Shown: positions 2,092 through 37,520 of the stretch, piece after piece | Position numbering within the stretch: the stretch's first letter is position 1 | Layout of the letters: each line of letters begins with the position of its first letter | Origin: a virus | Virus record (IMG/VR): IMGVR_UViG_3300023093_000071 | Span: 1 to 37,520 of that record | DNA length: 37,520 nucleotides | Strand: one strand, 5' to 3' | Made by a program: the position numbers and the translations under genes | Notes under the pieces: generated by a model | The model's database searches: none | Seen by the model: only the letters and a program-made list of their open reading frames with translations | What the model was told of the DNA's origin: nothing

Positions 2092-2619
2092 CTACGCAAC
2101 AAACTTCCAAGTCTCGCGCCTGACAACCATTCGCACAGTGTCAGGGCCAACCCCCATCTGGCGCCCGATCTCGGCGTTGCTCACACCCTGCGCTGACATT
2201 TGGCGGATCGTTCGCACCTTCGCCGGATCGAGCTTCTTCCGACCGTCGCCAAGGGTGCCGTCTCGAACCGCATCAGCCGCATTCTCTGCCCGCGTCTGCC
2301 ATGCGAGATTGTCAGCGCGATTGTTGCTCTTTCTCGGGTCAGGCGAATGACAAGCCAGCATTCCGGTGGGTCGCGGCCCCACGAACGTTTCGAGCATAAG
2401 CTGGTGGACGTACCGCTGAACTCGACCACCCTGACCGTCATAGAGCAAAACGTGGAGGTAGCCGTTCGCCTCGATCTTCGGCGTCAGCCGAGTCAGCTTG
2501 CGCCGACGCGCCGAGTAGATATTCCCGTCGAAGTCTGCATAATATCCGGGATGATTTGGGATCGGCAGGAAGAAAGATATGGCGCGTGATGCCGCGCTCT
2601 TGTTAGTATGATGATACAA
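2092..2619 (-). CDS. HNH endonuclease with NUMOD4-type N-terminus
   Basis: 175 residues. Residues about 18-40 (IPNHPGYYADFDGNIYSA) match the NUMOD4 module common in phage HNH homing-type nucleases. The HNH_3-like core follows (VHQLMLETF, CHSPDPRKSNNRADNLAWQT, EN) at about residues 78-125. A C-terminal helix-turn-helix (VSNAEIGRQMGVGPDTVRM) should bind DNA. Initiation is assigned to TTG at 2617-2619 because AGAGGA (2626-2631) sits 6 nt before it and no ATG exists nearby. It is probably a free-standing homing endonuclease. Its 5' region has an unusual promoter-hairpin arrangement, described separately. It lies downstream of the methyltransferase gene on the same strand. Confidence 0.85.
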   Translation of the reverse strand: MYHHTNKSAASRAISFFLPIPNHPGYYADFDGNIYSARRRKLTRLTPKIEANGYLHVLLYDGQGGRVQRYVHQLMLETFVGPRPTGMLACHSPDPRKSNNRADNLAWQTRAENAADAVRDGTLGDGRKKLDPAKVRTIRQMSAQGVSNAEIGRQMGVGPDTVRMVVRRETWKFVA

Positions 2620-2625
2620 GTAAAG

Positions 2626-2670
2626 TCCTCTTGGTGAGGAAACCCACTCCCCTCACCAAGAGTATTTATA
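2626..2670 (-). promoter_or_regulatory. TATAAATA late-type promoter abutting an RBS-hiding hairpin
   Basis: On the minus strand TATAAATA (2670 to 2663) is identical to the T4 late-promoter sequence. It is followed at once by a perfect 12-bp hairpin: CTCTTGGTGAGG (2662-2651), an 11-nt loop, and CCTCACCAAGAG (2639-2628). The ribosome site AGAGGA (2631-2626) of the HNH gene pairs with the first bases of the upstream arm. Read-through transcripts would hide the ribosome site. A transcript starting about 6 nt after TATAAATA would lack the pairing bases and leave it open. Confidence 0.65.
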
Positions 2671-2712: not shown

Positions 2713-3615
2713 TTACGCTGCCTCCTTCACCAACAATTCGTAAACTGCGACTACATCGTCCCAACTGATTGCAGGGCGGATAGTGGATCGACGCGATAGA
2801 GCCTGATAATCGATCATCAACAGTCGTCTACGCACCGCAGGGGTCGATGCAGAGAACAAAGCATAGTCGCGGCCCTTCACGAGCGGATCACCATTCCACA
2901 ACTTTTCGGTAAAATCGTAGCAGCCGGTGCGCGGTACTGCGAAATCCCAGTTGTCGTTTGCGAAGCGCTCCGGGTGATGACGGCGAACGCACGCATCTGC
3001 TCGAATGATCTTGAAGTCCGGATGTCGGCTCGGCGGTTTTGCTTTTAGACGAAGATCGGGCCACTTATCGCCCAAGGTCCAAACCTGAAAAGTAGTGCGC
3101 GCGTCGAAGTCGTTGCCCATATGGGTGAACGCCGTTTCCGGGAGCGGATGATTCAGCACCAAGCGGGCGTCCGATCGAACAGTTTTTTGCGCAAACCATT
3201 TCTGGAACGTCAAGGGAAGCACGAAGGCCACCATGCCCGCCGTTTCCAGACCGCGATTGATGAACTGACTGGCGAGCTTCCATCGCCGACCATAGGGCGG
3301 ATTTCCCACGATGGCGGCGCTACTCAACAGTTTGACCGGCAACGACAGGAAGTCGCGTTTGATGATCATGTCCGCATCGGGATCGATGTCGAAGGCGACG
3401 ATGTTGCGATCAGTCTCGTTGATGAAGGCCCCCGCTCCGGCGCTCGGCTCGATCAGAAGCGTGTCAGGTTCAAGGTAAGGTTCCAACAAGGCGAGACACA
3501 GACGAGCTACTTCCGGCTTGGTGTAGTATTTTTCGAGGCGAGTAGCGCGCTTGCATTCACGCGAGGTATTGCGGGCGCGACGCTTCACGCCCCGGCGAGG
3601 AGGTTTGTTGTTCAT
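2713..3615 (-). CDS. N6-adenine DNA methyltransferase, 300 aa
   Basis: This is an AdoMet-dependent DNA methyltransferase. Motif I (IEPSAGAGAF) is at residues 55-64, the acidic loop FDIDP at 75-79, and motif IV NPPYG at 105-109, the signature of N6-adenine enzymes. The frame is open further upstream, but ATG 3613-3615 is chosen because AAGGAA precedes it and the extra upstream segment is Arg-rich noise. No restriction nuclease is adjacent, so it is probably an orphan enzyme that protects phage DNA from host restriction or marks it. It appears to form an operon with the gene ending at 3669 (53-bp gap). Confidence 0.85.
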   Translation of the reverse strand: MNNKPPRRGVKRRARNTSRECKRATRLEKYYTKPEVARLCLALLEPYLEPDTLLIEPSAGAGAFINETDRNIVAFDIDPDADMIIKRDFLSLPVKLLSSAAIVGNPPYGRRWKLASQFINRGLETAGMVAFVLPLTFQKWFAQKTVRSDARLVLNHPLPETAFTHMGNDFDARTTFQVWTLGDKWPDLRLKAKPPSRHPDFKIIRADACVRRHHPERFANDNWDFAVPRTGCYDFTEKLWNGDPLVKGRDYALFSASTPAVRRRLLMIDYQALSRRSTIRPAISWDDVVAVYELLVKEAA

Positions 3616-8260: not shown

Positions 8261-8836
8261 TCACTTATAGCCGAGCCGCTGAATAAACGCCGCCTGCAAG
8301 TTGAGGATGGCGGCAGCGCTGCTGATTGTCGCTATGTCCATATTGTCCTGTAATGCAGCGTCAGCCGCAGATCGCGCCGTAGTTTCGTCAGTGACCCGCT
8401 GCCCCAACGCCGCATCCGCCGCTTGCCGTGCCGTCGTCTCTGCCGCAGCATTGGTCGCCAGCGTCGCCGCCCCGGTTGTCAACGTCGATACCGCAGCCGA
8501 ACGTGCCGTTGCCTCGTCGGTGATCCTCTGTCCCAAGCCCACATCTGCCGCTTGGCGAGCCGCGACTTCATTCGTCAGCGCTGTCGCAGTAGCGGGATCG
8601 CCGGTGACGAACTCGATCCACGATCCACCAACCCAGACGAAGGACGTCCGGGTCGCCACCACATAGACGATCGCGCCATCTTCAAGGCGTTCGAGCGGGA
8701 TCGCGTCGCGGTCAGCAATCGTCGATGCGGCCTTCCAGCCACCACGTCCCCAGCGACTGTCGTGCGTCGGATATGTGTCAGCGGAAGTCTGGGGAACGAT
8801 GGGGGCGGAAACGTTGGTGCCGGGGATGTTGGTCAT
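8261..8836 (-). CDS. tail-fibre-like protein, 191 aa, on the opposite strand
   Basis: The first 75 residues (IPGTNVSAPIVPQTSADTYP, then RDAIPLERLEDGAIVYV and a GGSWIEF segment) match a virion-anchor type domain of phage tail proteins. Residues about 85-170 are Ala/Thr/Arg-rich repeats (RQAADVGLGQRITDEATARS, repeated as RQAADAALGQRVTDETTARS) of the same kind as in the fibre at 30483, suggesting a trimeric coiled coil. The frame is open to 8974, but ATG 8834-8836 is chosen because GATAAATA-CCTG-ATG fits the start pattern of the late genes. ATG 8861-8863 is the alternative. It may encode an alternative or accessory fibre. Confidence 0.75.
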   Translation of the reverse strand: MTNIPGTNVSAPIVPQTSADTYPTHDSRWGRGGWKAASTIADRDAIPLERLEDGAIVYVVATRTSFVWVGGSWIEFVTGDPATATALTNEVAARQAADVGLGQRITDEATARSAAVSTLTTGAATLATNAAAETTARQAADAALGQRVTDETTARSAADAALQDNMDIATISSAAAILNLQAAFIQRLGYK

Positions 8837-8840
8837 CAGG

Positions 8841-8872
8841 TATTTATCAGAGGGCTGATTCATCGATAAATA
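8841..8872. promoter_or_regulatory. divergent pair of GATAAATA motifs
   Basis: TATTTATC at 8841-8848 (GATAAATA on the minus strand) lies 4 nt before ATG 8836 of the fibre-like gene. GATAAATA at 8865-8872 lies 4 nt before ATG 8877 on the plus strand. The two form an inverted repeat across 16 bases. Neither start codon has a ribosome site between it and the motif. Best read as back-to-back promoters for nearly leaderless mRNAs. Confidence 0.6.
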
Positions 8873-8876
8873 GACG

Positions 8877-8966
8877 ATGACTCCGCTCCTCTCCCGCATT
8901 CTCGACGAGCTTTTGGCACTCCGCTTCACCAGCGTCAGGCCGAAGGACAGGCCGAAGGAGGCGTGA
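8877..8966 (+). CDS. 29-aa leader ORF coupled to the next gene
   Basis: ATG 8877 sits 4 nt after GATAAATA and opens a 29-codon frame (begins MTPLLSRILDELLALRF). Its TGA (8964-8966) overlaps the GTG start of the next gene at 8963-8965, a typical coupling arrangement, with AGGAGG just upstream of the overlap. It may be a leader peptide that lets ribosomes from a leaderless mRNA reach the next start, or a short real protein. Too short to judge by composition. Confidence 0.45.
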   Translation: MTPLLSRILDELLALRFTSVRPKDRPKEA

Positions 8967-11964: not shown

Positions 11965-13495
11965 GGCGCTTACCCCCGATGAACTGATCGACCTCGAACG
12001 ACAGATTTGCGAATTCTCCCTCTACGAGTTTGTCAAAGCCGCGTGGCACATCCTCGAACCCGCCACCCCGCTGATCCTCGGATGGCACATCGAAGCCATC
12101 TGCCAGCGCCTCGAAGCCGTCAGCAGGGGCGACATTCAGCGGCTCGCGATCAGCATCCCGCCCGGTTTCATGAAGTCCTATCTCGTCAGCGTGTTCTGGC
12201 CCGCGTGGGAATGGACGCACTCACCGCACATCCGCTTCGTCAGCACCGGGGCCTCAGAGACCTTCATTGAACGCGATTGCGGCTACATGCGCCGGATCGT
12301 CGGTAGCGAATGGTATCAACGACGCTGGCCCCTCACCTTTCCGCACGACGACACAAAGCTCAAATTCGAGAATGACAAAACCGGTTATCGCTGGGGGCGC
12401 AGCTTCCAAAAACTGACGGGCGCCCGCGCTAACCGATTTATCTTCGACGATCTGTTGATGGTCGATGACGCCAACTCAGAAGTTGAGCGCGAGCGCGTCA
12501 ATCGCATTTTCTTCGAATCCACGCCCTCACGCGGCGCGAAAGAAACCGATGCTGTCGTGATCATCATGCAGCGCGTCCACGAAGGCGATCTGATCGGCGA
12601 GCTAAAAAGGAAGATTGCCGAGGGGAAGAAGCTCGACTTCCACTTCCTCGAAATCCCGATGGAATACGAACCGGTAGAACCGTGCGCATTCGGGATCACT
12701 GACCCGCGCACCACGATTGGCGAACCGCTCTTGCCGGAATATCGGTCGCGGCAATGGATCGAGCGCACCAAAGACATGATGGGCGCTTACGCGTGGTCGG
12801 CACAGTATCAGCAAGACCCGGTGCCGCGCGGCAATGGCCTGTTTAAACGGGAGGATTTCAACCTCTACCGCCCGTCAGAGCTTCCCACCTCCCTCAACCA
12901 TTACATCACGAGCGATCACGCCAACGGCGGGAAGGATTATAACGTGATCCGCGTGTGGGGCGTCGATCACCTGCGGCGTTTTTGGCTCGTGGACAGCTTC
13001 CGCGAACGGTGCTCGATCAACACGGCGCTCGGCATAGACGCCGCAGACGGGAAACTCTCAATCGCCAAGCGTGGCGCACTCGCGTTCGTGAAACGCTACC
13101 GCCCGCTATGTTGGTACGCCGAGCCTGATCCGATGTTCAAAGCCAACCTCGAAATGGTGCGCAACGTCATGCGGACCACCGGAGTAAGTTGCCCGATCGA
13201 GTTCAGCAGCGGGCACGGTCGAAACAAGGTTGAGAAGTCATCGGCCTATCAGAGCCTGTCGCAACTCGGGATGGTCTACCTCCCTGACACCTCGACCGGC
13301 GAGCAAGCCCTGATGGAATATTGCGCCTTCCCAGCCGGTCGCCACGACGATCAGGTGGACGCTGACTCGATCCTCCCCCGCATGATGACGCACGTGGCAT
13401 TCGTCGCCCCCACGGTGTCAGCACGGTCGAGGGATGATTACGTCAGCGCTGGCGACTACGACGATGGCGAGACGGCAACGAGCAACAGCTTTTAA
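11951..13495 (+). CDS. terL: large terminase subunit (packaging ATPase/nuclease)
   Basis: 514 residues, normal length for the family. The ATPase has an adapted Walker A ISIPPGFMKS near residues 67-76 and Walker B FIFDDLLMVDD near 162-172. The C-terminal RNase-H-like nuclease follows (WGVDHLRRFWLVD near residue 340, HDDQVDADS near 461-469, with the acidic residues expected for metal binding). It drives DNA into the prohead and cuts it. GGGAG precedes the ATG, in contrast to the TAAATA-led genes. In P22 order the portal gene should follow directly, but here about 2.9 kb of cargo intervenes. Confidence 0.93.
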   Translation: MTAIEALTPDELIDLERQICEFSLYEFVKAAWHILEPATPLILGWHIEAICQRLEAVSRGDIQRLAISIPPGFMKSYLVSVFWPAWEWTHSPHIRFVSTGASETFIERDCGYMRRIVGSEWYQRRWPLTFPHDDTKLKFENDKTGYRWGRSFQKLTGARANRFIFDDLLMVDDANSEVERERVNRIFFESTPSRGAKETDAVVIIMQRVHEGDLIGELKRKIAEGKKLDFHFLEIPMEYEPVEPCAFGITDPRTTIGEPLLPEYRSRQWIERTKDMMGAYAWSAQYQQDPVPRGNGLFKREDFNLYRPSELPTSLNHYITSDHANGGKDYNVIRVWGVDHLRRFWLVDSFRERCSINTALGIDAADGKLSIAKRGALAFVKRYRPLCWYAEPDPMFKANLEMVRNVMRTTGVSCPIEFSSGHGRNKVEKSSAYQSLSQLGMVYLPDTSTGEQALMEYCAFPAGRHDDQVDADSILPRMMTHVAFVAPTVSARSRDDYVSAGDYDDGETATSNSF

Positions 13496-14157
13496 AGCTG
13501 ATCTGCAACAAAATCCTCAACTTTACTGATCATGTCTGCGACATCCGCTGCCACGAACTTGTCGGGATTGCCGTGTGCAGCATTATTGCGAATGTCCGCA
13601 AGCGCTGTGATTCGCTTACTCACCAGTAAGTTGTAGCAGCCGTCCTTTGCCAAATCGGCGTTCATCTTGTTGAGATTTCCGATCGCCAAGCCGCGATCCA
13701 CGCATTGCTGCCGCATCGTAGTTTCCAGCACCACTCCGGCTACAACGGCAGCAGCGACAATATAGCCCGCCTTATATAGCTCGCGAGCTTGATCGAGTTC
13801 GCTGCTAAAAACTTCTGCCTGCACGAGGTTGCGGATGGTATTCAAATACCCTCCGTCGAAATCCTCTCGTGCAGCAGAAAAAACCGCACGAAGATCTTTA
13901 AACTTTCCATGGCTATCACGAAAGGATTGTGGCTGCTCCTGCTTTATAAATTCTTTGTAATGCTCCGAGTCCGGTCCGCATGCCTTGACGATCAAATTAC
14001 GCGTCTTGACGACCCAAGCAAGAAAAAGCTCTTCATCAATCTGAAATCCATCGAAATAGTCAGTGACGTGCTTCTTCGCGGTTTGATTTACCGCCTCCGC
14101 TTGGGCAGCAAGCTCTGCAAAACGCTTCTTCAATAGAGACTGATCAACCAAAGCCAT
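13492..14157 (-). CDS. HEPN-domain protein, 221 aa (defence cargo)
   Basis: The protein is helical, with a C-terminal HEPN-like region. The motif ADIRNNAAHGNPD contains R190-x4-H195, the RNase signature R-x4-6-H of HEPN proteins, and the preceding LYKAGYIVAAAVVAGVVLET segment is the usual paired helix. HEPN proteins act in RNA-targeting toxins and abortive infection. The gene runs against the virion genes and its stop codon shares bases with that of the large terminase through a small palindrome. It is less GC-rich than its neighbours. It probably acts as anti-phage cargo expressed in the lysogen. Confidence 0.75.
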   Translation of the reverse strand: MALVDQSLLKKRFAELAAQAEAVNQTAKKHVTDYFDGFQIDEELFLAWVVKTRNLIVKACGPDSEHYKEFIKQEQPQSFRDSHGKFKDLRAVFSAAREDFDGGYLNTIRNLVQAEVFSSELDQARELYKAGYIVAAAVVAGVVLETTMRQQCVDRGLAIGNLNKMNADLAKDGCYNLLVSKRITALADIRNNAAHGNPDKFVAADVADMISKVEDFVADQL

Positions 14158-14967: not shown

Positions 14968-15419
14968 CACAGTTCACTGACAAAGGGATCAAGGGGACAC
15001 CTCGCAGACGCCGATCTTCCTGCCGAGGATCACCCTCGACGGTCTGAAACGATTGTGTCAGACGGTCTGACAATGGCGCTACATCATTGTTCTTATTCAG
15101 CTTTTATGGTGTCCGAAGGTCGGAGATGGTCGGAAGGCCGGGGGGAGTCAGACCCCACCCGCCCCTCTCCGGCCCCCGGCCTCGCTGATGGAGGCGACCA
15201 AGCACCTCCGGGAATTTTTATAGAATTTCAGAAACCGGCGGCATCAGCGAGTTCCGGACCTAACCTTCACGGCGCACCGCCATATAACGTATTGCGCATA
15301 TGGTTATACGCGTAGGAGAACTCAGTTGACGGCATGGTCAACCGAGTGAAGGTTAGACAAACGAAGGTGTTGATAATAGCGGCTGGCATACCGTCACATT
15401 ATTCGCTATGATACGCGTC
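14968..15419. other. non-coding stretch with operator-like palindromes
   Basis: No convincing gene. It holds TGTCAGA-CGG-TCTGACA (15056-15072) and a nearby direct copy of GACGGTCTGA, two GGTCGGA words near 15118-15135, a 9-bp inverted repeat GGCCGGGGG/CCCCCGGCC (about 15138-15181), and an 11-bp inverted repeat CTAACCTTCAC (15260-15270) with GTGAAGGTTAG (15346-15356). TATGAT just before the next gene may be a -10 box. It probably carries regulation for the flanking cargo genes. Confidence 0.45.
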
Positions 15420-15983
15420 ATGAACGACCCAAACCAGATTCTTGCCGAAAAGCGTGCTCGGATAACCGAGCTTGAATCGGCGCTTGAAGTGGAGCGCGCC
15501 GAGCTTCGCGGTATGGAGTTGATGGCGAAATTGATCGTTCCCTCGGAGGCGTTCCTTCAACTTGCAGTGGGTTCGTTGAAGGTCGGAGGCGGGCCAGCCC
15601 GTGCTGGGGCGGCTCGCGCCCTTGATTATGCAGTCGAGGAAGCATCAACAAAGGGTCGCCAGCCCGGTTCGATTTCTATGAGGTGGCGCGCCGTGCTTTG
15701 GCGTCTTGAAGGTCTCGGCGGAAATTTCCGAGCGGCTGATATCGTTGCCGTGGTGAAGGAGCTTGAGGGACGGGAAATGCGCCCCGCAGACGCTAAGCGA
15801 CAGATGGATGTTTACGCGCAGCACGGCTTTGTGAGTGTAGAAAATGACATTTATAACGTCACTGACGAGTTTAGGAGCAAGTTCGCCCAGAGTGCGCAGA
15901 ACGGCTCGAACGAGAATGCCCCACCCAGCGAAAATCAGGACGATGTGCTGGGTGGGGCAGATACCGCGCAGGGTGCGCAATAG
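15420..15983 (+). CDS. coiled-coil plus winged-helix-like protein, 187 aa
   Basis: Residues about 4-35 (ILAEKRARITELESALEVER) form a coiled coil. Residues about 85-145 (MRWRAVLWRLEGLGGNFRAADIV, then FVSVENDIYNVTDEF) resemble a winged helix, the last strand reading as the wing. The tail is polar. A similar layout is seen in uncharacterised regulators. An in-frame ATG exists at 15408, but 15420 is also possible; neither has a strong ribosome site. The function is unknown. A role in regulating the cargo island is plausible because of the palindromes upstream. Confidence 0.65.
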   Translation: MNDPNQILAEKRARITELESALEVERAELRGMELMAKLIVPSEAFLQLAVGSLKVGGGPARAGAARALDYAVEEASTKGRQPGSISMRWRAVLWRLEGLGGNFRAADIVAVVKELEGREMRPADAKRQMDVYAQHGFVSVENDIYNVTDEFRSKFAQSAQNGSNENAPPSENQDDVLGGADTAQGAQ

Positions 15984-16422: not shown

Positions 16423-16430
16423 CATAAATA
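16423..16430 (+). promoter_or_regulatory. CATAAATA motif before the portal gene
   Basis: CATAAATA-TCGG-ATG: the motif ends 4 nt before ATG 16435. It lies between a strong terminator and the start codon and no Shine-Dalgarno sequence is present. This is the clearest case for the motif being a promoter. Confidence 0.65.
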
Positions 16431-16434
16431 TCGG

Positions 16435-18420
16435 ATGACGAATGACGAAACGCTCGGCGGACTCCTAACACCCCAGACTGACGATCAAAACACCCCGCCG
16501 GGCGATCCCGCGCCCGATTTCGAGATGCTTCGCCGCATGTTCCGGGAGGCGGCATCCGCGAGCGATCTACAACGTGAGCACGCCAAAGAGGATCGCGATT
16601 TCTTCGACGGCCCTCACCAGATCGACGACGCCGCGCGCGCCAAGATGCGCCGGATGCGCGTTCCCGAGACGTACTGCAACAAGATCACGAGCGCGATCGG
16701 CGCCACCCTTGGCCTCCTTGATAGCAATCAGACGCAGCCGGAAGCCGTGGCTCGCAACGAGGATGGGGAGGACGCAGCCACCATCGTCACCCAAATCCTT
16801 CGCTATCAGGCTGACAAAACCCGCCTCCCCTCGGTGCTCGACGCCACGTCAGAGAACGATCTCGTGGAGGGCATCTGCGCGGCCAAGATCGAGATTGATC
16901 AGCACGATAACTGCAAAGTGACCCACATCCCGTATGAGCAATTTTACTACGACCCCAGCAGCATGGCCTATGATTTCAAGGATGCCACTTACCTCATTCA
17001 TGCCTATTGGTCGGATGTCAGCGCTGTAAAGCGCAAGTGGACCGCCTTTGCTGACCAGATTCATTGCATCGGCTTCGACGGAGACGGCCCCGAGGACCGT
17101 CCCGCCAATGCGCGCTATTGGGTCGATCCTACCCGCCGTCGAGTGATGATCGTCGATAACTTCTACATCGACGCCGCCACAGGGAAATGGAAACGCGCGA
17201 TTTACTGTCACTCCACGATCCTCGAACACGGTGACACCGGATATGTTGATGATCAGGGCGAGAGCGTTTGCCCGATTGAGGCCCTTTCATTCCATGTCAT
17301 GCGCGACGGTGAGAGGCGCGGCATGGTGCGCAACCTCGTGCCGCTACAACGCAAGATAAACGGGTTTGAAGCCGCCCTTCACCGGATGGCAATCTCGAAC
17401 CGCGTGAAGGTCAGCAGCAGCGCGGGAACCGCCAATCCCGCCGATCGCGATCTCGCACGTCGAGAGGCGCAGAAAACCGATGGCGCGATGCCCGAGGGCT
17501 ACGACATCATTCAGGGCGATCACCGTTTCACCGACATGGCGAACGCGGTCTCGTTGATGAAACAGGAAATCGACGACGCGGCGCCGGGTCGTGCCCAGAT
17601 CGCCCAAGCGGGTGCCAACACTTCGGGTCGAGCGCGTCAGCTTCTCCAACAGCAGGGCTTGGCCGAACTCGCCCGAGCGTTTGGCAAATGGGAAGATTTC
17701 GAGGAGCGCGTCTATCGCCAAATGTGGTTCCGCGCCCGTCAGTTCATGACCGATCAGACGATGATCCGCGTCACTGACAATGCCGGTGCCCGCCAGACGC
17801 TGAAACTGAACGTCCCCGTGGTCGAGACACAGCTTCATCCGGTGATGGCTCCCGTGATTGATCAGACCGGCCAGCCCGTCGTTGGCCCGAACGGTCAGCC
17901 GGTGATGCGTCCTGCGGTCCATCCTCTCACTGGTGAGGTTCGGCACACCCCGGTTCCTGTGCATGTCTCGACCGAGAATGATGTCGCCACGATGGACGTG
18001 GATATCACCCTGAAGGTCGTCCAGACCGCTGACACGCTGCGCGACGAGGGCAAGCAGAAGCTCATGGAATGGAGCGCGAAGACCGGCATCTCGCTGCTCG
18101 ACCCCAACTTCAAATTTGCGATTAAATTTTTGGGAATCCCGGACGAGCAGCAAGTGCTCGCCGCCTATGAGGAATGCTTTCAGGAAGCGCAGCAGCTTAA
18201 CGCTCCCGCACAGCAAGAAAAGGCGCAGGCGGCACAGCAGGCGCAGTCGGTTCAGGCTGCGGCGGCACAGGCGCATGCCCAGCGTGAACAAGCGGCTGCG
18301 GCGCGTGATCAGACGCTCGCACAGAAGCATCAGGTAGAAGTTCAAAGCACCGAACTCGATAACGCGTGGAAGGCCGCGATGCTTCGCGCCGGTCACAACC
18401 CCAATTCCCCGGCGATCTGA
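16435..18420 (+). CDS. portal protein (P22 gp1-like), 661 aa
   Basis: The length fits P22-type portals. The N-terminal region has a charged helical start and the typical portal core (PYEQFYYDPSSMAYDFKDAT near residues 170-190, and LVPLQRKINGFEAALHRMAI near 300). The last about 60 residues are an Ala/Gln-rich helix (AQQEKAQAAQQAQSVQ), comparable to the barrel helix. It forms the ring through which DNA enters the head. The frame is open to 16339, but that start would lie within the terminator; ATG 16435 fits the TAAATA pattern. The scaffold gene follows after a 161-bp leader. Confidence 0.85.
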   Translation: MTNDETLGGLLTPQTDDQNTPPGDPAPDFEMLRRMFREAASASDLQREHAKEDRDFFDGPHQIDDAARAKMRRMRVPETYCNKITSAIGATLGLLDSNQTQPEAVARNEDGEDAATIVTQILRYQADKTRLPSVLDATSENDLVEGICAAKIEIDQHDNCKVTHIPYEQFYYDPSSMAYDFKDATYLIHAYWSDVSAVKRKWTAFADQIHCIGFDGDGPEDRPANARYWVDPTRRRVMIVDNFYIDAATGKWKRAIYCHSTILEHGDTGYVDDQGESVCPIEALSFHVMRDGERRGMVRNLVPLQRKINGFEAALHRMAISNRVKVSSSAGTANPADRDLARREAQKTDGAMPEGYDIIQGDHRFTDMANAVSLMKQEIDDAAPGRAQIAQAGANTSGRARQLLQQQGLAELARAFGKWEDFEERVYRQMWFRARQFMTDQTMIRVTDNAGARQTLKLNVPVVETQLHPVMAPVIDQTGQPVVGPNGQPVMRPAVHPLTGEVRHTPVPVHVSTENDVATMDVDITLKVVQTADTLRDEGKQKLMEWSAKTGISLLDPNFKFAIKFLGIPDEQQVLAAYEECFQEAQQLNAPAQQEKAQAAQQAQSVQAAAAQAHAQREQAAAARDQTLAQKHQVEVQSTELDNAWKAAMLRAGHNPNSPAI

Positions 18421-21292: not shown

Positions 21293-22126
21293 ATGTCAGA
21301 TACAGAAGTGCCAAAGGGCCAACTTTTCAGCAGAGTCTATTTGGAGAAGGGAAAGCCTGCTTCGGACGGCGAACGCTTTCGGACTCGCATAGCGTCACTC
21401 GCGAGTATCACTTCGTTCAACCGCGCAGACATGGCGAAGATAATTGCCCTAGAACTCGGAGTAGAGGTTCCGTTCGGAGGTTCGCATCCGCGCACAACAT
21501 ATTACTTTGATCGATTTATCGCGCACGCAGAAGTTCGGGATGTCCTTGATGTAATCAGCCTCATACACAAAAACATCCAATCAAATACTCGTGCTGATGC
21601 ACAGAGCGCGTATAGAAACTATGTCTCTAAAATTTTCCGAGAGGAAAATCTTGGATACCGGTTAGATGAAGATTGTGGCGTTCATTTTTACATCGATGAA
21701 GAATTCGAGCGATCCCGCGTTTCGGTAGTGGGATGCCTATCAACCGATGCATATAACGCCGCTCGTGACGCATTCGAAGATGCTCATCGCGCCCTTCTGA
21801 ATTCCGACACGCTGACTGCTGTGCGGCGTTCGTTTGACGCGGTTGAAAACGTCTTTAAGCTTCACTTTGGCGTTGCTCGCTTGGGAACATCGGAAATCAA
21901 AACCAAGTTGACGCCAATTTTACAGGCAACATATGCCGGTCGCGTGAACGATGCGGCCAACCGTCTTTCAGCGTCCTTCGCTGAATGGACGAATGCCGCT
22001 CACCAGTTTCGACATGCTCCGGGAGTCTCCGACCCATCTCCCCCACCCATGGATATTGCGGTCATGATGGTATCTGCGTCTGCATCATACCTTCGATGGC
22101 TCGTGGAACTTGCACCGTCGGCCTAG
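21293..22126 (+). CDS. Abi-like cargo protein, 277 aa, inside the head-completion genes
   Basis: Not a virion protein by appearance. It is a mostly helical protein with a DNA-binding-like start (FNRADMAKIIALELGVEV) and a C-terminal region (FAEWTNAAHQFRHAPGVSDP, followed by MMVSASASYLRWLVEL) like that of uncharacterised abortive-infection or HEPN-related proteins, where an aromatic-Arg-His motif is followed by a hydrophobic helix. The canonical R-x4-6-H spacing is not seen. GGAGAGG precedes the ATG. It is AT-richer than the flanking genes and sits between gp4-like and gp10-like genes. A TAAATA motif restarts transcription after it. Confidence 0.65.
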   Translation: MSDTEVPKGQLFSRVYLEKGKPASDGERFRTRIASLASITSFNRADMAKIIALELGVEVPFGGSHPRTTYYFDRFIAHAEVRDVLDVISLIHKNIQSNTRADAQSAYRNYVSKIFREENLGYRLDEDCGVHFYIDEEFERSRVSVVGCLSTDAYNAARDAFEDAHRALLNSDTLTAVRRSFDAVENVFKLHFGVARLGTSEIKTKLTPILQATYAGRVNDAANRLSASFAEWTNAAHQFRHAPGVSDPSPPPMDIAVMMVSASASYLRWLVELAPSA

Positions 22127-24703: not shown

Positions 24704-24740
24704 GATAAATACCACCATGACGATTCATGGTGATATTTGA
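24704..24740 (+). promoter_or_regulatory. GATAAATA motif with hairpin and 7-codon leader
   Basis: GATAAATA (24704-24711) ends 5 nt before ATG 24717, which opens a 7-codon frame (MTIHGDI) whose TGA overlaps the next ATG (TGATG at 24738-24742). CACCATGA/TCATGGTG forms an 8-bp hairpin over the leader start codon. This restarts transcription of the ejection-protein block after the minus-strand cargo. Confidence 0.5.
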
Positions 24741-25438
24741 TGCCGCCCGCAGTCGCTGCGGCGGGCATCTCGGCGGCAGGCACCGTCGCGGGCGGAGTGG
24801 TTTCTGGCAAGGGCGCGAGCAAAGCCGCAGCCATTCAGGCGAAGTCGGCGGCTGATCAGCTTGCCTTCCAGAAGCAGATGTATGGCGATGATGTCGCCCG
24901 CTACCAGCCTGACATCGCGCGCGGCGACACCGCCGCCACCAACTATTCAGCCCTGCTCGGACTCGGCGGCGATCAGAAAGCAGCCGATGACGCCTTTGCG
25001 ACATGGAAGGCCGGGACCGGCTACCAGAACACGCTGAATGCCGCACTCGACGGTGTAAACGCCTCCGCTTACGCGAGTGGCATGGGCCGCTCCGGCGCGG
25101 CCTTGAAGGCGTTGCAGGACCGTGCGGGTCAGGTCGCGGACGGCACGTACAACAGCTACATGGGCGATCTGAGCAACGTGGTTCAGACTGGCGCGAATGC
25201 CAAAGCTTCCCTGACTGGCGCGAGCACTTCGGCTGTCTCGCAGAATGCCGCGACCACCAGCAACGCCGCGAATGCCTCGTCGAACGCGGCGCTATCCTCA
25301 GCGGCTTCGACCTCATCAGCACTTCAATCGCTCGGGCAGCTTGGTGCTTACGCCTACAATTCCAGCTTCGGCACCCCGGCCAAGATCGGCACCACGAGCA
25401 CCGCCCCCGTCGTCATCAACAACGCGAAGGGGTCGTAA
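24740..25438 (+). CDS. ejection protein in gp7 position, 232 aa
   Basis: Ala/Gly/Ser-rich protein with a hydrophobic start (AVAAAGISAAGTVAGGVVSG) and a helical middle (AAAIQAKSAADQLAFQKQMY). This is the usual look of internal virion proteins that leave the head with the DNA and build a channel in the host envelope. It is in the position of P22 gene 7. TTG 24737 is an alternative start, but ATG 24740 is coupled to the leader stop. The lytic transglycosylase gene follows directly. Confidence 0.7.
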   Translation: MPPAVAAAGISAAGTVAGGVVSGKGASKAAAIQAKSAADQLAFQKQMYGDDVARYQPDIARGDTAATNYSALLGLGGDQKAADDAFATWKAGTGYQNTLNAALDGVNASAYASGMGRSGAALKALQDRAGQVADGTYNSYMGDLSNVVQTGANAKASLTGASTSAVSQNAATTSNAANASSNAALSSAASTSSALQSLGQLGAYAYNSSFGTPAKIGTTSTAPVVINNAKGS

Positions 25439-29506: not shown

Positions 29507-29514
29507 GATAAATA
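29507..29514 (+). promoter_or_regulatory. GATAAATA motif before the first fibre gene
   Basis: GATAAATA-TCCTC-ATG: the motif ends 5 nt before ATG 29520. TCCTC is not a ribosome site. Confidence 0.55.
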
Positions 29515-29519
29515 TCCTC

Positions 29520-30428
29520 ATGTCCACCGGATCAATCATCAATCTCAATTTTCGCGGCACCACTCCAATCAGGTCGGTTGGCACCATCACCGAGCTTCGC
29601 CGTGTGCTGTCCAATACCATCGCCACCGCTGACAACATGATCGTTGATGGCGGTCTCGCGCTCGGCGACGGTAAGGGCGGCACCTTCGCCTTCGACGGCG
29701 CCTGCATGCTCGACGACGACGGTGTTGCGACCGTCAAGCCGATCGACATTGGCGACGGATCGCCGGGCCGTTGGCGCATCGTCGAAGCACAGATCACCGA
29801 CGCTTCCTCGATCGTCTACGGGGGTCAGTTCGCCAGCGTGAGGGATGCGCTCGACGCCATTTTGTATGTCGCGCCCACGATCAGCAGCTTCGCGGCCTCG
29901 CCATCAGTGGTCGAACTCGGCAGCACAGTATCTTCCGTCGCGCTCACATGGACGCTCAACAAGACCGTCACCAGCGAGACGATCACAGGCCTCGCCACCA
30001 TCACGCCCGATGCGCGCACCGCGACCGCCGTTGGCCCGTTTACCTCGGATCGTTCGTGGACGCTTACCGCGAGCGACGGGAAGACCAGCGTCAGCGTGAC
30101 CACCGCCATCGCGTTCCGGCAGAAGCGCTATTGGGGCGTGTCAGCCAAGACCGCCCTTTCCAACGCTGACATCCTCGCACTGAATGGCGAGTTCGCCACG
30201 TCGAAGTCGAAGACGGTCGTCTATGACGCCACGGGCGGAAACTACCCATACATCGCCTATCCCGCTGCGTGGGGCGATCCCAGCGCGACTGTCGGCGGAC
30301 TGGCGTTCTCCGATTTCGTTACCGTCACCCAGTCAGTCACAAATTCCAGTGGCTACACCAGTGACTATAAAGTCGTGCGTTTCGGCAGAATTCAGAATGG
30401 ATCGTCGATCAGCGTTCAGTGGAGTTAA
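29520..30428 (+). CDS. tail fibre/spike protein with Ig-like domain, 302 aa
   Basis: The first about 90 residues (IINLNFRGTTPIRSVGTITE, GLALGDGKGGTFAFD, SPGRWRIVEA) are the same anchor type as in the next fibre gene, so both proteins may attach to the same tail site. Residues about 120-200 are an Ig-like beta-sandwich (PSVVELGSTVSSVALTWTLN, SWTLTASDGKTSVSVTT), followed by a beta-rich C-terminal domain. Likely a receptor-binding or decoration protein. No tailspike-type enzyme motif is seen. Confidence 0.75.
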   Translation: MSTGSIINLNFRGTTPIRSVGTITELRRVLSNTIATADNMIVDGGLALGDGKGGTFAFDGACMLDDDGVATVKPIDIGDGSPGRWRIVEAQITDASSIVYGGQFASVRDALDAILYVAPTISSFAASPSVVELGSTVSSVALTWTLNKTVTSETITGLATITPDARTATAVGPFTSDRSWTLTASDGKTSVSVTTAIAFRQKRYWGVSAKTALSNADILALNGEFATSKSKTVVYDATGGNYPYIAYPAAWGDPSATVGGLAFSDFVTVTQSVTNSSGYTSDYKVVRFGRIQNGSSISVQWS

Positions 30429-30470: not shown

Positions 30471-30478
30471 GATAAATA
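30471..30478 (+). promoter_or_regulatory. GATAAATA motif before the second fibre gene
   Basis: GATAAATA-TCGG-ATG, with 4 nt before ATG 30483. The spacer TCGG is identical to that before the portal gene. A GGGCGAT/ATCGCCC hairpin (about 30450-30464) lies just upstream and may end transcription from the first fibre gene. Confidence 0.6.
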
Positions 30479-30482
30479 TCGG

Positions 30483-32285
30483 ATGAGCACATCACCCACG
30501 ATCGACCTTCGCTTCGGCGGATATATCGCCAGCGTTCCGACCGTCTCCGTTCTTCGCAATACTGTCGATCCCACTCAATACATCAAGGGTGATTCGATCA
30601 TCGTCCTTGGCAACGCGGACATCTCGGATGGTCGCGGTGGCGTCTATGCGTGGTTGCCCGATGCGACCGCCGACGATGACAACTACGATGTCATCGCCCC
30701 TGTTTCTGGTGCCGGTCATCCGGGGCGATGGGTGCTGGCAGTCGGCCCCACCCCTGAACTCGCAGCGCTCGTGCTCGCGGTCGGCAACGAGCAATCCGTC
30801 CGTCAGAACGCTGACTCCTCGCTCGCCGCGTCGATCCACACAGAGCAAATTGTCCGCACCACCGCTGACGAAGCTCTGGCGCAGCGTACCACCACGCTCG
30901 AAGCGAGCTTCACCTCGCATCAGGGGGCGATTGACGGTCTCGCAAACAGCCTCGCAACTTCAAACGCCCGGATCACTGACGAGGCAACCGTTCGCGCGTC
31001 GGCGGATCAAGCGCTCGCTTCACGCACCCTGACGCTGGAAGTCTCGCACACCGAGCAACAAAATTCCCTCAACAATCTCACCACCAATCTCACGACGGCC
31101 AATGGTCGCATCGAAGATGAATCGACCGTCCGAGCGACCGCCGATCAGGCACTGGCGTCTCGCACCACCACTCTGGAATCCGACTTCACGACCCAGCAAG
31201 GCGCGATCGGCGGGCTGCTGACCGACCTCACCTCGGCGAAGGCGTCGATCACCGATGAAGCCAGTACGCGCGCAGCGGCTGACTCGGCGCTGGCGTCTCG
31301 AACCACCACGCTCGAAGCCGGTTTCAGCGGTCATCAGACATCGCTGGACGGTCTCACCAGTGGCCTTGCCACCGCTAACGCCAAGGTCACCGACGAAGCA
31401 ACTGCTCGCGCCGATGCTGACTCGGCTTTGGCGCAACGAACCACGACGCTCGAAAGCAATTACAGCAATCAGCAAAACGCGATCAACGCGACGAATGCCA
31501 GTCTCTCGACCGAGCAGACTGCGCGCTCTGATGCGGATGGCGCACTCGCGAGTCAGATCACCACCCTGATCGCTTCCACCAACAGTTCGGCGGCAAACCT
31601 GTCCGCCCGCCTCTCTGACGAGGCTTCGGCCCGGACGAATGCAGATCAGGCATTGGCGTCACGCGCCTCGAACCTCGAAGCCACGGCGGGCAACCTCACC
31701 TCCCGCGTCAGCGTCACGGAAAGCGCCGTCGCAAACTTGGCTGGCAAAGGCGAGGCATATTGGAAGGTCGAAGCGGTATCGGGGAGCAACCGCGCACAGT
31801 TGTCGATCCACGCCGACGCCAACGGCGGGGCCGGTGTAGATATCGTCGGCGATGTCACGATTTCGGGCAACCTCGTCGTGGATGGCACCCTGAATACCGG
31901 GAAGCTCTCAAACGGCGCAATCACCGGTTACTATCAGGGTTACAACAGCATTTCATATCGCGGCGCTGGCACCGGCTACCAGCAGACGCTCGTCAGCTAC
32001 AACGTCCACATGGACTTCGAAGGCGACATCCTTCTGTGGGCCACAGCAACGCAGTCCTACGGCAGCACGGATGGCCTTCACCCTTGGAACATGAGCGTTT
32101 GGGTAGACAGCGGTAGCTATGGCTCCTCGGGCGGCGGCACGGCTGTCACTGACAGCGCTTCGACATCAGGGCGCGCGCACGTTGGCCCCGGCGATCATAC
32201 GGTCGAACTCCGCTGGATCGGTCACAGTGCGATCACGATCAATCCCGGTTCGGCCAGTATTATCGCGATGAGGGCCTACAAATGA
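30483..32285 (+). CDS. long tail fibre with coiled-coil repeats, 600 aa
   Basis: N-terminal anchor (residues 1-95, GDSIIVLGNADISDGRGGVY, then HPGRWVLAVG) as in the first fibre. Residues about 100-420 contain at least six copies of a roughly 36-residue unit of the form ALASRTTTLEAxFxxHQ, then LxxAxAxITDEAxxRAxAD, suggesting a trimeric coiled coil. The C-terminal about 130 residues are beta-rich and Gly/Ser-rich (YQGYNSISYRGAGTGYQQ) and should bind the receptor. ATGA overlap links it to the DUF4376 gene. Repeats in the DNA may recombine and change fibre length. Confidence 0.82.
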   Translation: MSTSPTIDLRFGGYIASVPTVSVLRNTVDPTQYIKGDSIIVLGNADISDGRGGVYAWLPDATADDDNYDVIAPVSGAGHPGRWVLAVGPTPELAALVLAVGNEQSVRQNADSSLAASIHTEQIVRTTADEALAQRTTTLEASFTSHQGAIDGLANSLATSNARITDEATVRASADQALASRTLTLEVSHTEQQNSLNNLTTNLTTANGRIEDESTVRATADQALASRTTTLESDFTTQQGAIGGLLTDLTSAKASITDEASTRAAADSALASRTTTLEAGFSGHQTSLDGLTSGLATANAKVTDEATARADADSALAQRTTTLESNYSNQQNAINATNASLSTEQTARSDADGALASQITTLIASTNSSAANLSARLSDEASARTNADQALASRASNLEATAGNLTSRVSVTESAVANLAGKGEAYWKVEAVSGSNRAQLSIHADANGGAGVDIVGDVTISGNLVVDGTLNTGKLSNGAITGYYQGYNSISYRGAGTGYQQTLVSYNVHMDFEGDILLWATATQSYGSTDGLHPWNMSVWVDSGSYGSSGGGTAVTDSASTSGRAHVGPGDHTVELRWIGHSAITINPGSASIIAMRAYK

Positions 32286-34710: not shown

Positions 34711-35412
34711 ATGGCGCTTGAACCACAAGGTGTCGATGTTGCCGGAGTCGTAGAACGGCTTCGCCACGCGAATCGTCGGATCGTTCAGACGGTCGAATGG
34801 GCTCGGGCCGCAACCGAGGTCTGGACCGTCTTCAACGAGTTTGAGGATCGCATGACGGTGGCTCACTCACCGGCCCAAGAGGCTGCACATGTATACGAGC
34901 GCGCGTCGCTAGATGCCCGGATTGTTATGATCACGCGAGTGCTGGACCGCCCCGGTCGTGGGCGCATCATGGAACAGAACCGACTCAGCTTTCCTGTCTG
35001 CCGTGAATTGATGGCGCAACCGGGCGTGATGGATTGGCTCATACAGGATGCCGATGACCGGGACATCCTCGAAAATCGTCGCGGGCCTGCCGTTCGGGAA
35101 CGCTGCCCCGCCTTCCTCGATCTTTTAGCAGAAATAGAAACGGAGGCTGATCCAAATCGCGCCCAGCTTCTGCGCGATTTTCGGGATGAAAATATAGCTC
35201 ACGAGTTGCGCTTCGACGAACTTCGGGCACGCCCTGAGTTTCAGCACCTCCATTCGCTTCTTCGAGACGTGCAGACACTGACTGAACATTTGGCAATGAT
35301 CGTTCAAGGAGAACGCGTACTTTGGCGCGATGGCAATGTCGCACGCAGCGCCACCGCCCTGTGGCAAGCGGTTGCGGATCGTTTTCGCGACGATGAACCC
35401 GAGTTTGCGTGA
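34711..35412 (+). CDS. AbiU2-like HEPN protein, 233 aa
   Basis: All-helical protein. LLRDFRDENIAHEL contains R158-x5-H164, the HEPN RNase motif in the form typical of the AbiU2-like group (FR[DN]xxxAH). Upstream helices (ASLDARIVMITRVLDRP) fit the family pattern. The predicted role is abortive infection by RNA cleavage. It lies next to the integrase at the end of the prophage, a frequent place for cargo, and its stop codon touches that of the integrase. No clear ribosome site precedes ATG 34711. Confidence 0.75.
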   Translation: MALEPQGVDVAGVVERLRHANRRIVQTVEWARAATEVWTVFNEFEDRMTVAHSPAQEAAHVYERASLDARIVMITRVLDRPGRGRIMEQNRLSFPVCRELMAQPGVMDWLIQDADDRDILENRRGPAVRERCPAFLDLLAEIETEADPNRAQLLRDFRDENIAHELRFDELRARPEFQHLHSLLRDVQTLTEHLAMIVQGERVLWRDGNVARSATALWQAVADRFRDDEPEFA

Positions 35413-37140
35413 TCAGTTCCTCGCTCCGGTTGTGAGATTGCGCCCGTCTCGACGCCGCAGGAAGCCATCAACTGTTTCATCCTGCCCGTAGTCGCGCCCG
35501 CCCCTGACGAGATCAAGGTAGCCCACCTTGCCGTTGGGTAGAATGTGCATGGCACCCAGCCCCTGCACCAAGGAAACGCTCACTAGGCCCGTCTTGGGAT
35601 CGAACACGATGCGGTCGATGACATTCTGGAACGCGGCCTTCACTAACGAGCGCGTCTCATATCGCTCATCAACGTCTTCGCTCTCCATCTTGCATCGAAC
35701 TTCGGCGACGCGGACAACATGCTCGCCGGGAGCGACCATGCCCTTGGCTTCTGAAAGAGTCTCCTGCGCCTTCGCGAGATCGGCCCTTGCGCGTTTGAGT
35801 GCCGCGTCTGCCGCCGCGTATGCTTCGCGCGCTTCCTCATCGTCGTCTCCCGCGATTATAGCGAGAATGCGCTTTTTGGAGGCCTGCCGGTCGGTGACCG
35901 TGCGCTGTAGGCGAACCACCTCACCTTCAAGCCGCGCGGTGGTTTCATCATCCGCACGGAAATGCTGATCATCGATTGCGAGCGTGAGCAAACGATCCAA
36001 GATTGGGCCTTCGATCGAGCGATACGGCCATCCGCGCTGATTCGTGCATCCCGCTCCCTTCGTCATTTTCGCCGTCAAGCAGTAGATTGGGTAGTGCTGC
36101 GATGTGCTGCCGTCTCTGTTCACGCGGATGCGTGACGAACCAAGCGGCTGCATGGTGCCGCCACACTGCTTACATTTCGCCAGCGGGCCAAGGAGGTTGG
36201 ACACCGCGCGGCCCCGACCCTGTGTTTGAAGCTGGTTGGTGAGTCGAGCATCGTTTGCCCTTGCCCATGTCGCGTCGTCTATCACGGGCGGGTAGACCTT
36301 GATCGGATCGCCCAACGGCACCTTCTTCTCCGCCCCCCGAGGCGCGCGATGATACTGGACATATCCAGTCACCGCTCGATCCTGAACGATGCGGGCAACG
36401 GCCGATGGCGTCCAAGCCTTTGGAGGCGTCTTGCTGGTAGACCACGCCGCAAACCGAGCGTCGGTCGCCGCGACCTCATTGAAGTGCTTGGCGATGGCTC
36501 CCTTGCCCCAGCCTTTCAGCCGCAGCCGGAACATTTCGTGGACCAGCCACACGCGATCGGCGATTTCTGCATAGCCTTTGGTGTCCGCGTCCCAGCGAAG
36601 CCAGCCGCGAGCGCGATGCCGAGAAAGGTTCTTCCCGGCTGCGGCGGCTTCCCGACGCTTGCTCCAAGAGGCGTTGCCGCGCTCGCGTTGCTTGCGCGAG
36701 AATTCATAGTTGGAAAACGCACTGCTCATCATCGTGACGAACCCGCCGAAGTCCGTCTCCATCACAGTTCGGGTGAGAATCTGGCCGGTGTTCGCTATGG
36801 CAATGGTAAGGCCAAGGTTCAGCAGTGGGGTCAGCCACGCCGTCATCACGCCGGGAGACTGGCGCGATAACCGATCCAGTTCCTCCACTACCACGACGTG
36901 TGCATTCGGATCGAGCGCTCCGGTGTGGAAGCGCCGCGTTAGCTCGCCAAGTTTGCCCTTCGTAAGATTCTCGCCCGTGAAGGCTGATCGGCCTGCATCG
37001 ACATGCCGCTCAACAATAGGCCAACCGTGGAAGGTCGCCATTCGGTTGATATTAGCATCCTGCCGAGCTTCCGAGCTACGATCACTGTTGCCTTGTTCGA
37101 GGGTGCTCCACCGAAGCACCGCGATTGCTTTCTTGTCCAT
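35413..37140 (-). CDS. large serine integrase, 575 aa
   Basis: The N-terminal catalytic domain has S12 in [10 protein letters not shown] and EELDRLSRQ near residues 87-95. A 'Recombinase' DNA-binding domain follows ([14 protein letters not shown], then [19 protein letters not shown]). Next come a zinc ribbon (CKQCGG near 323-328, with further Cys in [13 protein letters not shown]) and a coiled coil (about 410-480) that controls direction of recombination. It starts 41 bp from the comM junction, the normal place of an integrase beside attP. It should integrate the phage into comM; excision would need a directionality factor, which I cannot identify. Confidence 0.92.
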
Positions 37141-37200
37141 GATGACAACTCTACACCACCTGTTGATAGGGGTGCATTATTGTCGAGCAGCGGGCCGGAC
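37141..37200. other. attachment-site junction (prophage/comM)
   Basis: Read on the minus strand, comM codons for SGPLLD end at 37182 and the sequence then departs from comM (the family continues RIDLH). The crossover core therefore lies at or just right of 37182. Serine-integrase cores are only a few bases, so the exact bases cannot be set without the left junction, which is outside the window. Confidence 0.7.
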
Positions 37201-37520
37201 ACCTTGGCCTGATAATCCGCCGCGCATTTCGGCGCGCGCGAACAGGCGAGCGCGGCATCGCCAAGGTGGCCGCAGCGGCACGGGTTCATCGCCGCGATCA
37301 ACTGCACCCGCGCCGGGAAGGTGACGTGCGCGTTGGCGCGCGCGACGCTGACCGTGCCGGTCTCGAGCGGCTGGCGCAGCGAATCGAGCACAGCGCGCTG
37401 GAACTCGGGCAGTTCGTCAAGGAACAGCACGCCGAGATGTGCGAGGCTGACCTCGCCCGGCTTCACTTTCAACCCGCCGCCGGTGAGCGCCGCCATCGAT
37501 GCGGAATGGTGGGGGCTGCG
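37182..37520 (-). pseudogene. comM: comM (YifB) fragment, interrupted by the prophage
   Basis: The reading frame enters from the right edge with [14 protein letters not shown], then Walker [22 protein letters not shown] and ends SGPLLD, all diagnostic of the ComM/YifB Mg-chelatase-like AAA+ helicase used in natural transformation. It is cut before the arginine of SGPLLDRID. The N-terminal part lies beyond the window, and the C-terminal part should lie beyond the prophage's left end. ComM acts in branch migration of incoming DNA, so the lysogen is probably impaired in transformation by homologous DNA. Confidence 0.92.

Follow-up and report, generated by a model that had tools for sequence, protein, structure and literature searches.

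The HNH gene and its leader

The window, i.e. the whole 37,520-nt stretch of DNA that was analyzed (IMG/VR record IMGVR_UViG_3300023093_000071), belongs to a temperate phage of Sphingomonas-type bacteria. On its minus strand, a gene encoding an HNH endonuclease follows a gene resembling phage adenine methyltransferases, and the region holds the features below.

2713-3600, minus strand: co-directional gene resembling phage adenine methyltransferases, upstream of the HNH gene and putative source of read-through RNA
2663-2670, minus strand: TATAAATA, putative promoter element of the NATAAATA family that would drive the HNH gene (sequence and motif family)
2658-2662, minus strand: anti-SD CTCTT, the first five nt after the motif, expected only in read-through RNA; pairs with AAGAG (2632-2628)
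2657, minus strand: predicted transcription start, a G, the sixth nt after the motif (from the spacing between motif and ATG at other sites)
2651-2662, minus strand: 5' arm of the hairpin, CTCTTGGTGAGG (sequence, folding)
2640-2650, minus strand: hairpin loop, partly closed by further pairs that leave 5 nt (folding)
2628-2639, minus strand: 3' arm of the hairpin, CCTCACCAAGAG, ending inside the Shine-Dalgarno sequence (sequence, folding)
2626-2631, minus strand: Shine-Dalgarno (SD) sequence AGAGGA of the HNH gene, overlapping the end of the 3' arm
2092-2619, minus strand: HNH_3 endonuclease with a C-terminal HTH, 175 aa, TTG start (open reading frame and domain match)

By employing a domain search with the HNH protein of the window, an HNH_3 match above the cut-off was obtained (4.5e-7). 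The open frame has its first start codon, a TTG, at 2619, with GAGG 7 nt before it. The motif TATAAATA is present as a single copy in the whole 37,520-base window, both strands counted, against 0.09 expected. According to the original prediction, this motif abuts a perfect 12-bp hairpin whose first five 5'-arm bases (2662-2658) pair with the ribosome site of the HNH gene; the coordinates, the perfect stem and the pairing of CTCTT with AAGAG were all confirmed in the sequence. The stem grows to 15 bp when G-U pairs are allowed, and in the folding of 2600-2662 none out of 200 shuffles was as stable (z -4.05). After TATAAATA, the fifth nt is a T and the sixth a G (2657). The stop of the methyltransferase-like gene (2713) is situated 42 nt from the motif, and read-through RNA from this gene into the HNH leader is plausible. 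The leader had no match in Rfam, and no close relatives of the junction were found in phage records, IMG/VR or the species genomes, nor was a close relative of the junction found that lacks the HNH gene and could serve for comparison.

By its capsid, portal, ejection and head-closure genes, the window belongs among podovirus-type phages. At the window end, a serine recombinase (35413-37140) adjoins a host gene that is 85% identical to Sphingomonas jinjuensis DNA and which we take to be comM/yifB. This neighborhood (35413-37496, minus strand) also appears in a different prophage of G244 (L129, 2191-4318), and a distant methyltransferase relative adjoins comM in Sphingomonas jinjuensis as well (L027, 3334-3665). 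Furthermore, HEPN-like, AbiJ-NTD4-like and AbiU2-like matches, the first two of them below the cut-off, were obtained at 13492-14157 (minus strand), 21293-22126 (plus strand) and 34711-35412 (plus strand), respectively; going by sequence, these could possibly be phage-borne defence genes. A perfect 13-bp inverted repeat is found at 15917-15959, near the 3' end of the gene at 15408-15983.

The motif family in the window and its relatives

With the first base left free, the motif of the NATAAATA family reads ATAAATA, of which the window holds nine copies, against 0.7-1.9 expected. Seven of the nine are GATAAATA, and several directly precede late genes. Five are followed, after 4-5 nt, by the ATG of a gene or of a coupled mini-ORF, as identified by the motif scan:

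8834-8847, minus strand: ATAAATA-CCTG-ATG, minus-strand gene with 191 aa from that ATG
16424-16437, plus strand: ATAAATA-TCGG-ATG, portal gene
24705-24719, plus strand: ATAAATA-CCACC-ATG, mini-ORF of 7 codons, its stop overlapping the ejection gene start at 24740
29508-29522, plus strand: ATAAATA-TCCTC-ATG, gene at 29520
30472-30485, plus strand: ATAAATA-TCGG-ATG, tail-fibre gene at 30483

Two copies stand back to back with about 18 bp between them (8847 on the minus strand and 8866 on the plus strand; 8834-8879).

Relatives were picked by capsid similarity with the motif ignored, namely L005, whose capsid is 97% identical to that of the window, and Sphingomonas prophages of G231 (two), G142 and G042, with 40-43% capsid identity. 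All of these carry the motif in the same position. Together with the window and two further prophages (in G244 and G175), which were found via the motif and so provide no independent validation, they make up a set of 60 sites. An ATG follows the motif after 3-5 nt in 37 of the 60, as compared to 6.1% by chance (p 8e-30), and in the motif-independent subset, i.e. L005 and the four prophages, in 23 out of 34 (p 2e-20). The spacer is 4 nt long at 18 of the 37 motif-ATG sites, 5 nt at 16 and 3 nt at three, which means that the ATG starts at the fifth or sixth nt after the motif in 34 of them. The genes downstream of motif sites include those for portal, tail, ejection and lysis functions. Where no ATG is adjacent, an SD with a start codon is often found 24-75 nt downstream, as would be the case for a promoter. 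No conserved -35 element was found, neither at TATAAATA nor across the 60 sites, which in this respect have the form of T4-type late promoters, i.e. TATAAATA or NATAAATA without a -35 element before late genes. T as the first base, as in TATAAATA, is a minority variant, seen in about 12% of sites.

We infer from these data that the ATAAATA family is a promoter family, and the motif-ATG spacing would place the RNA 5' ends 5-6 nt after the motif, in agreement with the start about 6 nt after the motif that the original prediction had assumed. Such a start would apparently give leaderless mRNAs at most sites. In a search of open-access papers, we found no description of the motif or of leaderless late genes in sphingomonad phages.

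The fixed spacing of 3-5 nt could also mean that NATAAATA is an element that acts in translation near start codons, or else a binding site for a protein, with the HNH hairpin as a stand-alone RNA switch. Some motif sites in hairpin loops would fit this as well, with weak support overall (combined p about 0.02). The sites that lie 24-75 nt from an SD-led start are better accounted for by a promoter, however, and the 8-mer is identical to the late promoter sequence of T4 and cyanophages, so that this explanation is unlikely, although it fares best among the alternatives. The more general idea of an occluding hairpin at every motif site, with arms flanking the motif, had the same weak support and is not claimed here; for hairpins right after the motif, the combined p across sites was 0.003-0.009.

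Slightly less probable still is a host promoter with a standard sigma-70 -10 element that is linked to late genes only by coincidence. TATAAA agrees with the -10 consensus at five out of six positions, and the search for a phage sigma factor found none. Against this stand the absence of the -35 element noted above and the rarity of the motif-ATG arrangement in host chromosomes outside prophages. In three whole lysogen genomes, matches to ATAAATA-N3-6-ATG fell inside prophages in 9 out of 10, 5 out of 6 and 6 out of 8 cases, i.e. 20 out of 24 in total, indicating that the motif is mainly a phage element; the reversed pattern, used as a control, gave at most three matches per lysogen genome.

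As for the factor that would read the motif, the late sigma factor gp55 (phrog_234, phrog_12791) had no match in the window, in L005 or in the three lysogen genomes, while the T4 control matched at 2.5e-70. The lysogens were covered as whole genomes in this search; the window may be a fragment. No Sigma70_r2 domain was identified in the prophage regions, and no gene outside the structural block was found to be common to all motif-bearing phages.

Certain sites have a more elaborate configuration. A tail-region gene in the G175 prophage (L131, 11165, plus strand) follows a logic of the HNH type, with GATAAATA, CCTCAC...GTGAGG, TTTCCA and ATG in succession and an SD opening cost that goes from 8.7 to 4.1 kcal/mol. 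Behind the motif of the ejection gene lies a mini-ORF of 6-8 codons (24705-24742, plus strand, in the window; L005, 11237; L114, 15448, minus strand; L112, 13838, minus strand), and in no fewer than three of these four phages its stop overlaps the gene start (TGATG/TAATG). The peptide is variable and a hairpin around the first ATG recurs; this looks like a leaderless start with translational coupling. Lastly, GATAAATACCATCATG was found in five and GATAAATAGCCGGATG in four Sphingomonas genomes (from the set G030, G060, G089, G124 and G280), possibly as conserved host sites of the same form.

Leaders of related HNH genes and SD accessibility

HNH relatives were collected by protein similarity from 295 Sphingomonas genomes, 398 genomes of the family and IMG/VR. 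Out of about 105 relatives checked, only three, i.e. those in the window, L084 (G113) and L140 (G310), have the motif just upstream, and the leader with motif and hairpin is consequently not general in the HNH family. All three, however, have a perfect hairpin right after the motif with the SD in its 3' arm. The L084 leader reads AATAAATA CTTTTGGAG ... CTCCAAAAG GAGTATCTACA ATG and that of L140 GATAAATA CCTGTGAGGAG ... CTCCTCACAGG AGATAATAATA ATG, the bases after the 3' arm being GAG and AGA, respectively. The counterparts of the anti-SD CTCTT are CTTTT in L084 and CCTGT in L140. Over the first nine arm positions of the three leaders, all 27 pairs are canonical, and five of the nine positions have two-sided, compensatory changes, which is the very check that had been proposed along with the original prediction. 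Lack of hairpin conservation in related phages had been named there as evidence against it; instead, the arrangement recurs in these two HNH genes. The L140 HNH protein is 42% identical to that of the window, and the prophage in which it lies shares the structural family of the window; the neighbor gene upstream is divergent there. The gene upstream in L084 has a NATAAATA start of its own, and the HNH frame of L084 ends early, near a transposase-like frame. Two further matches to the leader pattern in IMG/VR (L136 and L137) were discarded as chance: both contigs are AT-rich, and no HNH start follows the match.

That pairing should be conserved among bases which the promoter's own RNA would lack makes little sense unless this pairing has an effect on read-through RNA. 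That the hairpin is instead an intrinsic terminator or 3' stabilizer of the methyltransferase operon, with accidental SD masking, is suggested by its position some 50-85 nt downstream of the methyltransferase stop codon and its terminator-like score (15 pairs, tail GACTTTACTT), but is rejected as the main explanation and left the least probable alternative, because there is no clean U-tract, the SD and start region (GAGTATCTACAATG, AGATAATAATAATG) rather than a U-run follows the homologous hairpins of L084 and L140, the gene upstream in L140 is divergent and all three hairpins begin at the first base after NATAAATA.

In partition-function folding, opening the window SD (GAGGA) was predicted to cost 7.5-7.9 kcal/mol in read-through RNA and 0.7-2.9 kcal/mol with the 5' end at +4 to +6. 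The corresponding values were 4.6-5.1 vs 0.9-2.3 kcal/mol for L084 and 5.8-6.9 vs 0-1.8 kcal/mol for L140. When the inner arms were randomized as a control, an equally large drop was seen at +4 to +6. It thus follows from the geometry, i.e. a hairpin that starts at nt 1 after the motif and whose first five bases are the anti-SD, and it is no separate evidence of tuning; the minimum at +4 to +6 was accordingly rejected as a sign of such. The short RNA keeps a 10-bp stem directly upstream of the SD, by which ribosomes might still be hindered.

A proposed promoter-linked RNA switch and its counterparts

The reading we favor, with a probability of about 0.72, is that TATAAATA is the HNH gene's own promoter, and that the hairpin blocks translation of read-through RNA while the promoter's own messages expose the SD. 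The NATAAATA promoter family would serve the late (capsid, tail, lysis) genes of this sphingomonad phage group. Messages from upstream would carry the whole hairpin, the first five bases of which would cover the SD and leave the HNH gene untranslated, while messages started at the motif would begin at about G2657, lack 2662-2658 and have the SD exposed. HNH synthesis would thereby depend on the gene's own promoter and be independent of neighboring transcription. Since the upstream gene is divergent in L140 and has its own motif in L084, it is safer to describe the gene as "insulated from read-through" than as "early off, late on", in that the hairpin may act as insulation from read-through RNA of every kind and not from early RNA alone.

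For the phage group as a whole, we lean, if only a little beyond even odds, towards the view that temperate phages of sphingomonads, belonging to two or more structural types, have a T4-like late-promoter system without a recognizable T4 sigma factor, often with leaderless mRNAs, since the start codon would sit at the transcription start, and with an SD-masking hairpin at some mobile HNH genes. The recognizing factor would then be a new late-transcription regulator or an unrecognized host sigma factor. If true, the T4 way of timing mobile endonucleases would also exist outside T4-type phages, in small temperate phages, and their lack of a recognizable gp55 points to convergence on the same logic. 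For a phage group that has received little study, it would also provide a concrete set of late promoters with leaderless mRNAs and raise the question of what reads NATAAATA; compared to the HNH gene, this wider motif set with its apparently leaderless mRNAs may be the more important finding. The original prediction had called the arrangement T4-like. This holds for the 8-mer and the logic, and the promoter-like motif, the putative start past the masking bases and the recurrence speak for the interpretation; the likeness does not extend to the T4 machinery, as the window and the three lysogen genomes yielded no relative of gp55. The arrangement probably arose independently of T4.

Among known phages, the Pseudanabaena phage Pam1 group has major capsid proteins 29-37% and portal proteins 28-30% identical to those of the window but, unlike the window's phage group, is without NATAAATA-ATG sites. 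The late promoters of the cyanomyoviruses S-PM2 and Syn9 are NATAAATA, placed before late genes (PMC2984593), i.e. the same 8-mer with a free first base as in the window's phage group. Cyanomyoviruses have gp55 homologs, however, whereas the window's group has many motifs 3-5 nt before an ATG, implying leaderless mRNAs. In T4, the genes for I-TevI, I-TevII, I-TevIII and segB combine a hairpin that masks the ribosome binding site (RBS) with a late or middle promoter, and in I-TevI the late promoter is placed so that its RNA is without the masking bases (PMC2988022, PMC3014915). The window shares with I-TevI and segB a ribosome site masked in read-through RNA, here as predicted by folding. The T4 set consists mostly of GIY-YIG and of intron-encoded endonucleases, found in large phages of the T4 type that possess gp55 and gp33, whereas the HNH gene of the window is free-standing and belongs to a temperate prophage of podovirus type with gp55 undetected. 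A free-standing HNH homing endonuclease, mobE of Aeromonas phage Aeh1, has an RBS-sequestering hairpin and a late promoter nearby (PMC2988022). It differs from the HNH gene of the window in belonging to a T4-related phage, where it is inserted in a ribonucleotide reductase gene, but resembles it in being free-standing and in having an RBS hairpin, here a predicted one, and a nearby promoter. As in I-TevI and mobE, the SD would be sequestered by a stable hairpin in read-through RNA, as indicated by folding, and RNA from the gene's own promoter would be without the masking arm, as indicated by the sequence and the motif spacing.
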